Part shown: one piece after another, positions 30,253-55,889 of the stretch
How positions within the stretch are numbered: the stretch's first letter is position 1
Layout of the letters: every line of letters starts with the position of its first letter
Source: Lentibacillus halodurans
GTDB taxonomy: Bacteria; Bacillota; Bacilli; Bacillales; Amphibacillaceae
Length of the DNA: 64,000 nt
Direction: 5' to 3'
NCBI RefSeq assembly: GCF_900112045.1
Contig: NZ_FOJW01000009.1
Coordinates: 62,001 to 126,000 of the forward strand
Program-made: the position numbers and the translations under genes
Notes under the pieces: model-generated
Database searches by the model: none
The model's input: the letters and a program-made list of their open reading frames with translations, nothing else
What the model was told of the DNA's origin: nothing

Positions 30253-30568
30253 GAGGCTGGAACATAACGAAAGTAAAGTGGCTTAAAAGACAACCAATCG
30301 TCCGTTTTAGCGGAGGAAATATACGTAGATTCCAGCGGGAGGAAAGGCCTGAGTGAGACCACGAGTGTGAATGCTCGCGGAGGCTCACCAGCCGCCCGCG
30401 GAAAGCAACGAGCGAAACATCCACCGAGTAAACTACGAGTTGCGAGGAGTGCTGCTTCTCCGAAATCTCATTCAATACGACGAGCACCAAGTAGATTTCC
30501 GCAGCGGGGTATACTTTTCTTTGTTTGTTCGAATTTTTGTTTTATAAACGTTCTTTTGTCCCAGCCTC
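30253..30568. repeat. Structured interspersed repeat (copy A)
   Basis: The ends form an inverted repeat, GAGGCTGGAACA on the left and TGTCCCAGCCTC on the right (11 of 12 pairs). The same terminal sequence bounds copies B (39015-39478) and C (54640-55884). Inside, 30398-30449 matches the type D repeat at 7683-7734. An exact GTTCTTT at 30550-30556 also falls in it. It splits the matrix operon between the second tasA-like gene and tapA. The remaining bases to 30661 contain TATAAT at 30622-30627 without a clear -35. Confidence 0.75.
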
Positions 30569-36350: not shown

Positions 36351-39005
36351 ATGAAATGGTATCAGATGGACGCAGATGTAGTCGAGCAAAAATTACATGT
36401 AACGACAAAACATGGCCTGACAGATAGACAGGTTGAACAGCGCCGAAAACAGTATGGGCCAAACCGACTGGAAACGGAAAAAAACACATCGAAGTGGCTG
36501 ATTTTTTTGAAACAATTCCAGGATTTTATGGTGCTAATTCTGTTGGCTGCAACGCTAATCGCCGGTATGCTGGGTGAATACGTAGATGCTATAGCTATTA
36601 TGATTATTGTCCTGGTGAATGGTTTCCTTGGTTATTTCCAAGAACAAAAAGCAGAAAAATCACTTGCGAAATTAAAAGAAATGTCTGCACCGGTTGCCGT
36701 TGTGCTGCGCGATGGTACGTGGGAAAAAGTTCCATCAACAGAAGTGGTTGTAGGAGATGTCGTACGGATAAATAGTGGTGACCGGATTCCTGCAGATATC
36801 CGAATAACCCAAGCAAATAGTCTGGAAACCGAAGAATCGGCATTAACCGGAGAATCACTCCCGGTAATGAAACACGCGACAAGCATTTCGCAGGACAGGC
36901 TTGATGCCCAGGATCAAGTGAACATGGGGTTTATGAATACATTAGTCACACGCGGTTCCGGGACAGGAATTGTTGTCGGTACTGGTATGAATACTGTAAT
37001 GGGGCAGATCGCCTCGTTAATGGTGAAAACGGAGAAAACAACCACCCCGCTTGAACATAAACTTGCCGAATTGGGAAAAATTTTAATTGCCGTTGCACTG
37101 CTTTTGACCGCTTTAGTTGTACTGGTCGGTGTATACCAGGGTCATCCGGTATACAATATGTTTCTTGCAGGCGTCTCGCTGGCAGTTGCTGCCATACCAG
37201 AGGGACTGCCAGCTATTGTAACCGTTGCTCTGTCACTTGGTGTTCAGCGTATGATCAAAAAGAAGGCCATCGTCAGGAAACTGTCGGCAGTCGAAACCTT
37301 GGGATGTGCCTCGGTTATTTGTTCGGACAAGACGGGAACAATGACCGAAAATCAGATGACAGTAAAAGAAGTGTTTCTGAATGGAAAGTTTTTATATGTA
37401 ACCGGTGACGGCTATGATGTGAAGGGGAACGTGTTTTTAAATAAAAATAAGGTGGACAGGGATTTTCCCAATCTGGAACCGATGTTTTTGTATGGAATGC
37501 TGTGTAATCATGCATCTTTAATGGTCAAAAAAGGGAAGAATTATGTTGATGGAGATCCTACAGATGGAGCACTGCTTGTGGCAGCGCGAAAACTGGGGCT
37601 ATCGCATCAGCTGCATGACAATTACCGTATTATTAAGGAACTGCCATTTGATTCCGATCGAAAGCGGATGAGCATGGTTGTGGAAGATGAAAATAAAATG
37701 CGTTTTTTGATTACAAAAGGGGCACCGGATGTTCTGTTGCCGCGCTCCAATTACGTTATGAAAGAACATGGCAGGAAACTGATGCGATCTGAGGATAAAC
37801 AGGCGTTTGATCAGGCTATTGACAATATGGCGGACAAAGCATTGCGGACACTGGCGATAGCTATGAAACCTCTGGCAAAAGATGAATCATTGAATGCTGC
37901 AACTTTAGAAAAAGACTTATCACTCATAGGTTTATACGGGATGATGGATCCACCGAGAAAAGAAGTGAAAACAGCTATTGAGGAATCTCGTGATGCTGGC
38001 ATCAAATCGGTTATGATAACCGGTGATCATGAAAAAACCGCCCGTGCAATCGCAACAGAGCTGAACCTCCTCCCTGAAAACGGAAGGGTATTGAATGGAT
38101 ACCAGTTGAATAATATGCCGATTGCAGAGCTTCGGGATATCATCGATCAAGTCTATGTTTTTGCCAGGGTAACACCTGAACATAAATTGAAAATTGTGAA
38201 GGCATTTCAGGAAGAAGGTCATATTGTAGCCATGACCGGTGATGGTGTGAACGATGCTCCGGCGATTAAAGCAAGTGATATCGGCATCAGTATGGGTGAA
38301 AGTGGAACAGATGTGACAAAAGAAGCCGCTTCACTCGTTTTAATGGATGATAATTTTGCGACTATTAAATCGGCTATTATTGAAGGTCGCAACATCTATG
38401 AAAATATCAGGAAATTTATCCGTTATTTACTGGCCTCCAATGTCGGTGAAATCTTGGTGATGCTGCTGGCGATGCTAATGGCTATGCCGCTGCCGCTTGT
38501 GCCGGTGCAAATATTGTGGGTGAATCTGGTGACAGACGGACTGCCTGCCATGGCGCTTGGGTTGGATAAGTCAGAAGAAGATGTCATGAAACGGGGGCCA
38601 AGGAATCCGAAAGAAGGTATTTTTGCCAGGGGGCTGGGGTTTAAAGTCGTCAGCCGCGGTATTCTGATTGGTGTTGTGGCACTAATTGCTTTTATGCTGG
38701 CATACGAGGGGAATCCGGATAACTTGATTTACGCCCAGACCATTGCATTTACGACATTGGTCATGGCACAGTTGATTCATGTATTTGACTGCCGGAGTGA
38801 ACAGTCCATTTTCGCACGGAACCCGTTTGAAAATAAATACCTTGTTCTGGCAGTCCTGTCATCGGTTTTATTGCTTTTAGTTGTTATTTATTGGGAACCT
38901 TTACAACCTATATTTCATACGACAGCCTTAGGATTAAGGGATTGGATGCTGATTCTTATCTTTAGCTTTCTGCCAAGCGTTTTCTTCGGTTTTTCCAAAA
39001 AGTAA
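36351..39005 (+). CDS. yloB: Cation-transporting P-type ATPase, calcium type (YloB/PacL-like)
   Basis: A P2A-type ATPase that probably exports Ca2+. The 884-residue protein has the N-terminal cation-ATPase domain, an actuator loop TGESLPV, and the membrane ion site AAIPEGLPAIV. The phosphorylation motif is CSDKTGTMTENQMT, and the hinge is MTGDGVNDAPAIKASDIGISM. The second ion-site helix reads ILWVNLVTDGLPAMALG. Ten membrane helices are expected. The PEGLP and NxxTD motifs fit calcium rather than heavy metals. It is followed by a structured repeat where yloC would be in B. subtilis. Confidence 0.92.
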   Translation: MKWYQMDADVVEQKLHVTTKHGLTDRQVEQRRKQYGPNRLETEKNTSKWLIFLKQFQDFMVLILLAATLIAGMLGEYVDAIAIMIIVLVNGFLGYFQEQKAEKSLAKLKEMSAPVAVVLRDGTWEKVPSTEVVVGDVVRINSGDRIPADIRITQANSLETEESALTGESLPVMKHATSISQDRLDAQDQVNMGFMNTLVTRGSGTGIVVGTGMNTVMGQIASLMVKTEKTTTPLEHKLAELGKILIAVALLLTALVVLVGVYQGHPVYNMFLAGVSLAVAAIPEGLPAIVTVALSLGVQRMIKKKAIVRKLSAVETLGCASVICSDKTGTMTENQMTVKEVFLNGKFLYVTGDGYDVKGNVFLNKNKVDRDFPNLEPMFLYGMLCNHASLMVKKGKNYVDGDPTDGALLVAARKLGLSHQLHDNYRIIKELPFDSDRKRMSMVVEDENKMRFLITKGAPDVLLPRSNYVMKEHGRKLMRSEDKQAFDQAIDNMADKALRTLAIAMKPLAKDESLNAATLEKDLSLIGLYGMMDPPRKEVKTAIEESRDAGIKSVMITGDHEKTARAIATELNLLPENGRVLNGYQLNNMPIAELRDIIDQVYVFARVTPEHKLKIVKAFQEEGHIVAMTGDGVNDAPAIKASDIGISMGESGTDVTKEAASLVLMDDNFATIKSAIIEGRNIYENIRKFIRYLLASNVGEILVMLLAMLMAMPLPLVPVQILWVNLVTDGLPAMALGLDKSEEDVMKRGPRNPKEGIFARGLGFKVVSRGILIGVVALIAFMLAYEGNPDNLIYAQTIAFTTLVMAQLIHVFDCRSEQSIFARNPFENKYLVLAVLSSVLLLLVVIYWEPLQPIFHTTALGLRDWMLILIFSFLPSVFFGFSKK

Positions 39006-39014
39006 ACCTGACTT

Positions 39015-39478
39015 GAGGCCCGACACAATGAAAACGTTCCACGCTAAAGACGAACACTACAGGGCAGGAAGTGCAGCATTTTACTTTGAACGAGTGACAA
39101 TTGTTGAAAGAAAAGCACACACGGAACAATATTCATTGAACTTGCTGTCACCTTGAGAACACGATTCTAAGCTGCGGAAAAATGCGACACGCCTGGGAGA
39201 ACAGCGCGAGCCGAAGATCCACTTTGCCAAGTGGTTTTCTTGGCAAAGTTAGCTGAGGCCGTGCCCCCGGAAAGGGCGTATTTTTCCGCAGCGACCATCA
39301 TGCACTCACCAACAAAAGCATGGAAGCAAGCAAATCTAAGAGCAAGTTACTTCTCCGTTGATGGATCATGCGCAACAAATGTTCAACAATACCTCAAAAG
39401 ATACATCCGAACTGTTCCCATCATAGTGGAATCATCGTTCGTATGTATCTTTGGCTAATATCCTTTTGTCTCAGCCTC
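39015..39478. repeat. Structured interspersed repeat (copy B, intact)
   Basis: A 464-bp noncoding element nearly identical to the two flanks of copy C (54640-55884). The ends GAGGCCCGACAC and TGTCTCAGCCTC form an imperfect terminal inverted repeat. Internal stems include GCTGCGGAAAAAT with ATTTTTCCGCAGC (13 bp), ACTTTGCCAAG with CTTGGCAAAGT (39221-39231 and 39239-39249), and AAAGATACATCCGAAC with GTTCGTATGTATCTTT (39397-39412 and 39437-39452). It fills the gap between the ATPase gene and remA together with the remA promoter. Short open frames inside it are not believed to be genes. Confidence 0.85.
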
Positions 39479-39634
39479 TTTCATTTTCAGCTTAAGTTGC
39501 TATAATGAGGGGAGGCTGATTTAAATAGCCGTATTGGATCGGACACTTCATTGCAATTACTGTCTACAAATCTGGATAATGGGAACAAAAAGCCGAGAAA
39601 AACAAAGAATAAGCCCAAAACAAACAGTAAATGG

Positions 39635-39714: not shown

Positions 39715-39984
39715 ATGTTGAGTTTACGATTAATTAATATTGGTTTCGGGAATGTTGTTTCAGCAAACAGGGTTATTTCGATTGTGTCACCGGAATCAGC
39801 TCCGATCAAGCGAATTATTACAGTAGCACGTGATAATAATAAATTAGTGGATGCCACTTATGGACGGCGGACACGTGCTGTTATCATTACGGACAGTGAT
39901 CATGTTGTACTGTCAGCTGTCCAGCCGGAAACTGTCGGACAACGTGTGATCAGTCACGAGGAAGTTATAGATGAGAATAACTAG
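39715..39984 (+). CDS. remA: Extracellular matrix regulatory protein RemA (YlzA)
   Basis: RemA is a small ring-forming DNA-binding protein that in B. subtilis activates the eps and tapA matrix operons and osmoprotection genes. The 89-residue product contains the family sequence [52 protein letters not shown] and [15 protein letters not shown] 39715 follows AAGGGGGAG; a TTG one codon later is the alternative start. It precedes gmk by 11 bases, the conserved order. The matrix operon at 29013-32789 is a plausible target. Confidence 0.93.
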
Positions 39985-54627: not shown

Positions 54628-55040
54628 AGTTAAAAAATAAGGCTGAGACACATTAAAACGTTTCACGCTAAAGGCGACGATTACAGGGCAGGAAGTGCAG
54701 CATTTTACTTTGAACGAGTGACAATTGTTGAAAGAAAAGCACGCACGGAACAATATTCATTGAACTTGCAGTCACCTTGAGAACACGATTCTAAGCTGCG
54801 GAAAAATGCGACACGCCTGGGGGAACAGCGCGAGCCGAAGATCCACTTTGCCAAGTGGTTTTCTTGGCAAAGTTAGCTGAGGCCGTGCCCCCAGAAAGGG
54901 CGTATTTTTCCGAAGCGACCATCATGCACTCACCAACAAAAGCATGGAAGCAAGCAAATCTAAGAGCAAGTGACTTCTTCGTTGATGGATCATTCGCAAC
55001 CAATTTTCAAACATACCTCAAAAGATAAATCCGAACCGTT

Positions 55041-55261
55041 TGAACTGCCCCCTGTTAAGTAGACAGTGGAAATAATAAAAAGGATTTACGCGGCCTTCTT
55101 CCCTATACTCCATAGGACTGAGGCCGTTTAATCTTTGTTGGTATCGCTCAAAATTATAGAAATGGATGTATTCCTCAATTGCTTGAACTAATTGCTTATA
55201 TGTTTGATACTCGTTCTGATGCAAATAATACTTCTCACATTTTAATGTTCCCCAAAACGAT
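55041..55261 (-). pseudogene. IS3-family orfB (transposase) C-terminal remnant
   Basis: The minus strand from 55261 reads ESFWGTLKCEKYYLHQNEY, which holds the last acidic residue of the DDE triad, then QLVQAIEEYIHFYNFERYQQRLNGLSPMEYR, the usual end of IS3-type transposases. The upstream catalytic part is absent and stops lie between it and orfA. Confidence 0.8.
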
Positions 55262-55384
55262 TCTATTGGTCATTATCAATGCATCTTCCTACTCTCGACA
55301 TACTGTGTTTCATATGGGTTACCGCTGTTTTTTAGGTAATCCTTCTCATTGTCTAAGGCTGCTTGCACAATTTCTATATGTTCC

Positions 55385-55772
55385 TACCACGTTGTTTTTC
55401 TCCCTTTGTTCATAGCGTTTCTCCTTCCTCCCGATCCTTGTATTTCTTTATGACCATTATAATCTCTTATCCACTTTCGCAAAACAGATGTACTGGATAT
55501 GCCGTATTTTTCGATCACATCTTTAAGTGAGTAGTGTTTGGATAGATAATCAGAAATAGCTGCCAACTTCACTTTTTTGTATACACTTTCTTCTTAGAAG
55601 AGGTTCTCTTTAAACCTTCTCATCCATATTTGGTTACGGATTTCTTCCAATCCATAAGCGCTGTATGATGTACACCATACTTTTGATAAATACCTTTTAA
55701 GCTAAAACCTTTATGTTCATATGCATCCAATACTATTTGTTTAAATTCAATCGTATAATTCTTTCTTGGCAT
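55385..55772 (-). pseudogene. IS3-family orfA remnant
   Basis: Translation on the minus strand from 55772 begins MPRKNYTIEFKQIVLDAY and HHTALMDWKKSV. It meets an in-frame TGA after about 50 codons and a TGA near AGTGAAG. It then continues as a second helix-turn-helix segment, ISDYLSKHYSLKDVIEKYGI with SSTSVLRKWIRDYNGH. This is the usual two-HTH OrfA of IS150-like elements, broken by stops. Confidence 0.8.
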
Positions 55773-55889
55773 AAAAATAGCTCCCCTCAAAGTAGCAGAT
55801 TTTATTTTTTCATCTGTCTACTTAGAAGGGAGCATATCACATCGTTGGGATTTATCTTTAGCTAATATACTTTTGTCTCAGCCTCTTTA

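Follow-up and report, generated by a model that had tools for sequence, protein, structure and literature searches.

The locus and its features

The window, that is, the whole 64,000-nucleotide stretch of Lentibacillus halodurans DNA analyzed here, carries a structured repeat between a P-type cation ATPase gene and a RemA-like gene. This repeat, named copy B, occupies positions 39015–39478, as the first-pass annotation had stated. Its 5′ start, GAGGCCCGACAC, is a decayed terminal repeat, and its 3′ end is TGTCTCAGCCTC. Two further copies, A and C, lie in the window. The features are as follows.

36351–39005, + strand: P-type cation ATPase gene upstream of copy B
39006–39014, + strand: 9-nt spacer from the ATPase stop codon to copy B
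39015–39478, + strand: copy B, a non-autonomous IS1182-family element (MITE) in an internally deleted form, from sequence and genome search
39015–39036, + strand: left terminal repeat and subterminal sequence, partly decayed (GAGGCCCGACACAATGAAAACG)
39171–39292, strand unassigned: palindromic cassette (module 2) of copy B
39397–39452, strand unassigned: subterminal hairpin of copy B, adjoining the right end
39467–39478, + strand: right terminal repeat TGTCTCAGCCTC, the exact reverse complement of GAGGCTGAGACA
39479–39488, + strand: T-tract TTTCATTTTC directly 3′ of copy B
39715–39984, + strand: RemA-like gene downstream of copy B
30253–30568, strand unassigned: copy A, with ends as in B and the body of a second subfamily
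54639–55885, + strand: copy C, of the subfamily of B, interrupted at about 55041–55839 by an IS3-like insert

When up to 2 mismatches are allowed, the window contains 10 occurrences of GAGGCTGAGACA, a number reached in 1 of 100 shuffles. The long stems attributed to copy B are real: arms of 35 nt (71% complementary) lie in 39171–39292 and arms of 16 nt (94%) in 39397–39452. Copy B contains no transposase gene, and no ORF of 80 or more residues is listed within 39015–39478.

The repeat family and its modules

A genome search with copy B, its listed matches clustered by hand, gave at least 40 matching places; 40 of the 58 candidates were scored. The near identity proposed for B and C was borne out, at 95% over copy B query positions 13–407. 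The long span of copy C is due to the decayed IS3-like sequence inside it. The ends said to be common to A, B and C are indeed shared by all three, but the body of copy A is different and belongs to a second subfamily that has only its ends in common with B and C. Seven complete copies of this second subfamily were read, ranging from 87 to 316 nt.

Alignment of 26 copies revealed many fuller copies of about 640–720 nt and several others that are differently deleted. A middle stretch of about 130–250 nt that other copies have, whole or in part, is missing from B and C. The middle module absent from B is palindromic and resembles an inverted relative of module 2, the cassette kept in B. The gain and loss of modules differ from copy to copy. 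Large palindromic cassettes like those in A and B were also seen in genome G007 (locus L093) without recognized terminal repeats, and these may be a separate repeat family.

Folding and comparison with RNA families

Copy B folds better than its shuffles on both strands, with z of −3.66 and −2.99. Good folding on both strands is a general property of palindromic DNA. The first-pass annotation had considered a family of large noncoding RNAs, and this reading was not supported. An Rfam scan of copy B returned no family at its gathering score, and five permissive matches were far below theirs. No excess of pair changes was observed either. In module 2, none of the 28 predicted pairs was kept with both sides changed (22 copies). 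In the 3′ hairpin, both sides changed in 2 of 20 pairs, a count equalled by 197 of 500 shuffles (25 copies). These tests covered 22 of 25 module-2 copies and 25 of 26 3′ ends, all from a single genome. An RNA family for copy B was rejected on the Rfam results, at both gathering and permissive thresholds, together with the pair counts.

The module missing from B, present in the fuller copies, resembles Rfam tsr24 (RF02577), an S. aureus sRNA, with an E value of 3e-4 and 33.1 bits, below the gathering score of 50; the resemblance, likewise below threshold, was found in L008 and L010. Module 2 itself gave 14.5 bits (E 0.83) against the same model. Stems like tsr24, all below the cut-off, were found in 39 of 60 genomes sampled from the family versus 0 of 14 control genomes. 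At a locus separate from copy B, window 12385–12509 matches Rfam Bacillaceae-1 (RF01690) with 37.7 bits (gathering score 35).

Autonomous elements with the same ends

The family ends, GAGGCTGGGACA/TGTCCCAGCCTC, are common to autonomous insertion sequences of the IS1182 family (IS1272-like). A PF05598 profile search of 12 genomes of the genus yielded 30 loci, and 8 of these, in three sister genomes, are elements of 1837–1839 nt with these ends, both being exact in 6. A wider scan of named genomes detected 380 relatives of the transposase and kept 80 loci, 72 of them with full flanks. Allowing up to 2 mismatches, the left end was found in 66/72, the right end in 70/72 and both in 65/72 of these loci, and the elements with these ends are 1.82–2.04 kb long. 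The transposase of an insertion sequence with the same ends is NF033551, IS1182 family, at 449.9 bits (cutoff 270). The right subterminal sequence TTTGGCTA is common to copy B and the sister-species elements, which also carry a subterminal hairpin at the position corresponding to the right-end hairpin of copy B.

The profile search gave no match to PF05598 in the window genome. Transposase search detected one fragment there, with two in-frame stops, which belongs to a truncated IS relic, 87% identical over 460 columns and ending in a decayed terminal repeat. Because an intact transposase was not found in this 31-contig draft, mobilization is either past or unseen; the draft could hide an autonomous copy.

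These data show that the other first-pass reading, a non-autonomous mobile element, was the right one, as the ends belong to autonomous IS1182-family elements. Copy B is a MITE: it shares its ends with an autonomous element, has no transposase, and is one of many dispersed copies. It is filed here as a derivative of the IS1182 family and not as a member, since it carries no IS1182 transposase gene.

IS110-family and IS3-like elements in the repeats

An IS110-family element (PF02371) sits inside the MITE terminal repeat in the window genome (G000). Its junctions, given as contig and position, are:

Left junctions: C12:326, C16:220502, C18:126390, C23:38280, C17:235432
Right junctions: C13:312, C15:337, C6:20176, C17:234381

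Four of the five left junctions read GAGGCT|AACTATATAAAGTC, the exception being C17 with GAGACT, and all four right junctions read ...TTAATATAC|AAGG(C/T)TG(G/A)GACA. The non-coding end of the IS110 element carries the target-like sequence GTAGGCTGGGTTAC, in the way that a bridge-RNA guide might. A flank common to L018, L025, L135 and L005 was tried as an rRNA operon end; it had no Rfam match and turned out to be the end of the IS110-family element.

Several B-type copies (window 55041–55839; L148, L022, L137) contain a decayed sequence in the 3′ hairpin, which we take to be of an IS3-like family. In L014, 7 extra bases are found at the IS3-like insertion point, perhaps an excision footprint.

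Insertion junctions and flanks

A target-site duplication is usual for a MITE, though not universal; direct repeats of at least 3 nt flank 0/22 of the MITE copies and 1/65 of the autonomous elements. Direct repeats of 2 nt are in slight excess, at 3/22 MITEs (expected 0.7) and 7/65 autonomous elements (expected 2.4). Inverted flanks of at least 4 nt were observed in 6/22 MITEs (expected 1.7) and 19/65 autonomous elements (expected 6.8), exceeding all 300 re-pairings in both sets. Over 8 nt, the left flanks are A-rich (54% for 20 MITEs, 64% for 64 autonomous elements) and the right flanks T-rich (61% and 64%, respectively). L002, L012, L022, L023, L025 and L018 were left out of the flank sets, and L001, L016, L017 and L024 additionally out of the composition set; the flank-repeat set kept 22 MITEs.

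IS1272 is described in the accessible text of its report as targeting hairpins without a sequence consensus, some of them terminators, and as deleting the stem-loop with no target duplication (PMC4923244). This mode has been named an inverted-repeat-replacing mechanism (PMC5678879, accessible part). The lack of duplication and the inverted, A/T-rich flanks seen here fit the published account, as far as those two texts were available (PMC4923244, PMC5678879). The IS1182 family does not always insert without duplication, because 4-nt duplications have been described for other IS1182 elements; a Paracoccus element, for instance, is listed with apparent ones in the available portion of PMC3281130. 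According to the part of PMC9208149 that was accessible, IS1182 elements are overrepresented between convergent genes.

Terminator-like hairpins at the orthologous sites of relatives

Near 30 copies, 31 gene 3′ ends versus 2 gene starts lie within 60 nt, by a hand count on mechanically called ORFs. One hairpin detector was applied to 150-nt stretches of two site sets whose loci overlap but are not identical. A hairpin with a T-tail was detected at 39/52 orthologous sites of relatives, in 18/22 loci (dinucleotide shuffles, 4.4%), and at 1/27 sites of the window genome with the element removed in silico (dinucleotide shuffles, 3.5%). Slightly longer stretches gave 42/53 relative versus 1/28 own sites, copy B being counted twice in the latter set. 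Replacement of the target hairpin by the element, which characterizes IS1272-type insertion, is thus the pattern found, in comparisons between species. A hairpin need not coincide exactly with the position of the element to be detected; at B, C, L147 and L019 this coincidence was assessed by eye.

For the relatives, 41 of the 57 ortholog matches were followed, none of them for L003, L006, L007, L008 and L020 (5/23 loci); B is represented by 7 of its 11 fetched sites, L147 by G011 only and A by G007 only. From the own sites, L018, L022, L023 and L025 were dropped, and L001 and L002 were replaced by the window copies B and C. At 4 of the 22 loci (A, L024, L026 and L029) no relative was above the detector threshold, and that at locus A was narrowly under it (−7.9 vs −8).

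At the copy B site, a terminator-like hairpin is present in 7/7 congeners examined (11 fetched). In G011, G002, G007, G008 and G005, a short spacer leads from the stop codon to a CCCTTCTG..AAGGG hairpin, behind which lies a T-tract. Two hairpins are present in G006, and the hairpin of G004 is a related one. In the window genome, the stop codon is followed by a short spacer, the element, TTTCATTTTC and then TTGCTATAATGAG, which matches G011. The TTTCATTTTC after copy B is taken to be the remnant T-tract of the replaced terminator, which reads TTTTTATTTT in relatives. The terminator behind the P-type cation ATPase gene is very probably the one that copy B replaced.

At the copy C site, GCCTCCCT..AGGGAGGC in G007 and GACCCTCC..GGAAGGTC in G011 occur with A- and T-tracts at the position of the element. 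For L147, whose right end is missing, G011 shows GGGTAACGG..CCGTTACCC after a similar A-rich spacer, and at the L019 site G006 has an A run, CGATCCT..AGGATCG and a T run. All these before-and-after comparisons are between species and not strains, the relatives being about 73–84% identical to the window genome in the flanking genes, and at that distance terminators could have been turned over by other routes.

L176 in G011, the ortholog of L012, holds an A-type element; the window genome carries a B-type element there, and in G007 the site is a plain hairpin. The terminator at L012/L176 was apparently hit twice.

Origin of copy B and alternative explanations

We propose, with a probability of roughly nine in ten, that copy B is a MITE, derived from an IS1272-type insertion sequence (IS1182 family), which replaced the hairpin of the ATPase terminator and may now act as a new terminator. 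A transposase supplied in trans would recognize the ends shared by the MITE and the insertion sequence, and would target the intrinsic terminator hairpin behind the ATPase gene. The element would be joined at the feet of the hairpin, so that the hairpin is deleted with no target duplication, and the A-tract and T-tract of the target would stay behind. With the old T-tract behind them, the paired ends of the element would then enclose a folded body and make up a very large new terminator. Replacement in one step by an IS1182 transposase is suggested by analogy with the mode reported for IS1272.

Alternatively, the MITE may insert next to terminators because insertions are tolerated at gene 3′ ends, with the old terminators decaying later. 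The location at gene ends, taken alone, would fit this course as well; yet the A- and T-rich edges are retained up to the element while the hairpin is absent at 26/27 own sites, and inverted flank remnants exceed re-paired flanks, for the autonomous elements too. IS1272 is moreover reported to delete the stem-loop (accessible text of PMC4923244 and PMC5678879). Insertion with later decay is unlikely. Still less probable is that the copies are large structured noncoding RNAs of one family, spread by duplication and maintained for a function as RNA. The strong predicted folds, the likeness of the missing module to tsr24 and the spread of tsr24-like stems among the family genomes speak for RNA, against which stand pair changes that do not exceed shuffles, module content that varies across copies, ends that belong to a transposon and positions that are accounted for by target choice.

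Mobilization of the MITE by the IS110-family or IS3-like elements that touch it is hardly credible. The IS110-family element does abut the terminal repeat at several copies, and the IS3-like relic lies within the 3′ hairpin, but the junctions are those of insertion into the repeat, with GAGGCT left of the IS110 element and AAGGCTGGGACA or a near form right of it.

Possible function as a terminator

Replacement by the MITE would leave a structure that resembles a giant terminator, with paired ends and an inherited T-tract. The ends of the element pair in the predicted folds of 22/25 copies on the plus strand and 21/25 on the minus strand, in a set without L002, L012, L022, L023 and L025. As in an intrinsic terminator, the stem is closed beside a T-tract in predicted folds (22/25), with T-rich 3′ flanks. 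A consensus terminator scan of the copy B region found two terminator-like sites versus a mean of 0.9 in shuffles, and no site at the closing stem of copy B; the scan permits loops of 3–8 only, a limit that shuts out the closing stem. Judging from these folds, the element may stop transcription.

A hairpin-replacing MITE may even have rewritten a whole set of terminators, with dozens swapped for mobile modules of about 90–720 nt that halt transcription from either side by means of their paired ends and inherited T-tracts; the odds for this fall slightly short of even. If so, many genes would have a common, transposon-derived and highly structured 3′ end.

Relation to known systems

IS1272 and TnSha1 of staphylococci belong to the IS1182 family, as does the transposase of the MITE's partner, and in the accessible text they resemble the present element in hairpin targets, some of them terminators, and in a deleted stem-loop without target duplication (PMC5678879, PMC4923244). 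They carry a transposase, whereas the element here is gene-less, has large palindromic cassettes and occurs at no fewer than 40 places in one genome. The autonomous IS1182 elements of Lentibacillus, Virgibacillus, Thalassobacillus, Evansella and others share the terminal repeats and the A-rich/T-rich flanks, and those from the window's own genus also the right subterminal motif and hairpin; they are about 1.8–2.0 kb with a transposase gene, which copy B lacks.

MITEs with an IS1182-family partner are known in Methanosarcina acetivorans, of 160 and 169 bp in 14 and 7 copies, one with 4-nt direct repeats and one without, and the accessible portion of the report makes no mention of terminators or hairpin replacement for them (PMC3852290). 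The pneumococcal repeats SPRITE, BOX and RUP are likewise MITE-like. SPRITE resembles a terminator and is located close to gene 3′ ends, but it ends in AAAA/TTTT and its authors found no comparable empty site, according to the available text (PMC3049150).

Stem-loop-replacing insertion and IS1182 MITEs have thus each been published already; the novelty lies in a MITE taking the place of hairpins at many host terminators. No report of MITEs replacing terminators was found among titles and abstract openings, subscription papers being mostly unsearchable. If the proposal is true, the stem-loop-replacing transposition reported for IS1272 is not confined to autonomous elements and takes in many chromosomal terminators, and natural before/after pairs for terminator replacement exist across species. 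It can then be tested directly whether mobile DNA is able to take over from host terminators. Hairpin-replacing MITEs may also account for structured intergenic repeats with the appearance of RNA families.

The end sequence is also frequent in another genome of the same class: this 2.1-Mb genome (G351, locus L105) holds 53 exact GAGGCTGGGACA words, and the single one that was read precedes GTCCTAGCCTC, a short hairpin.
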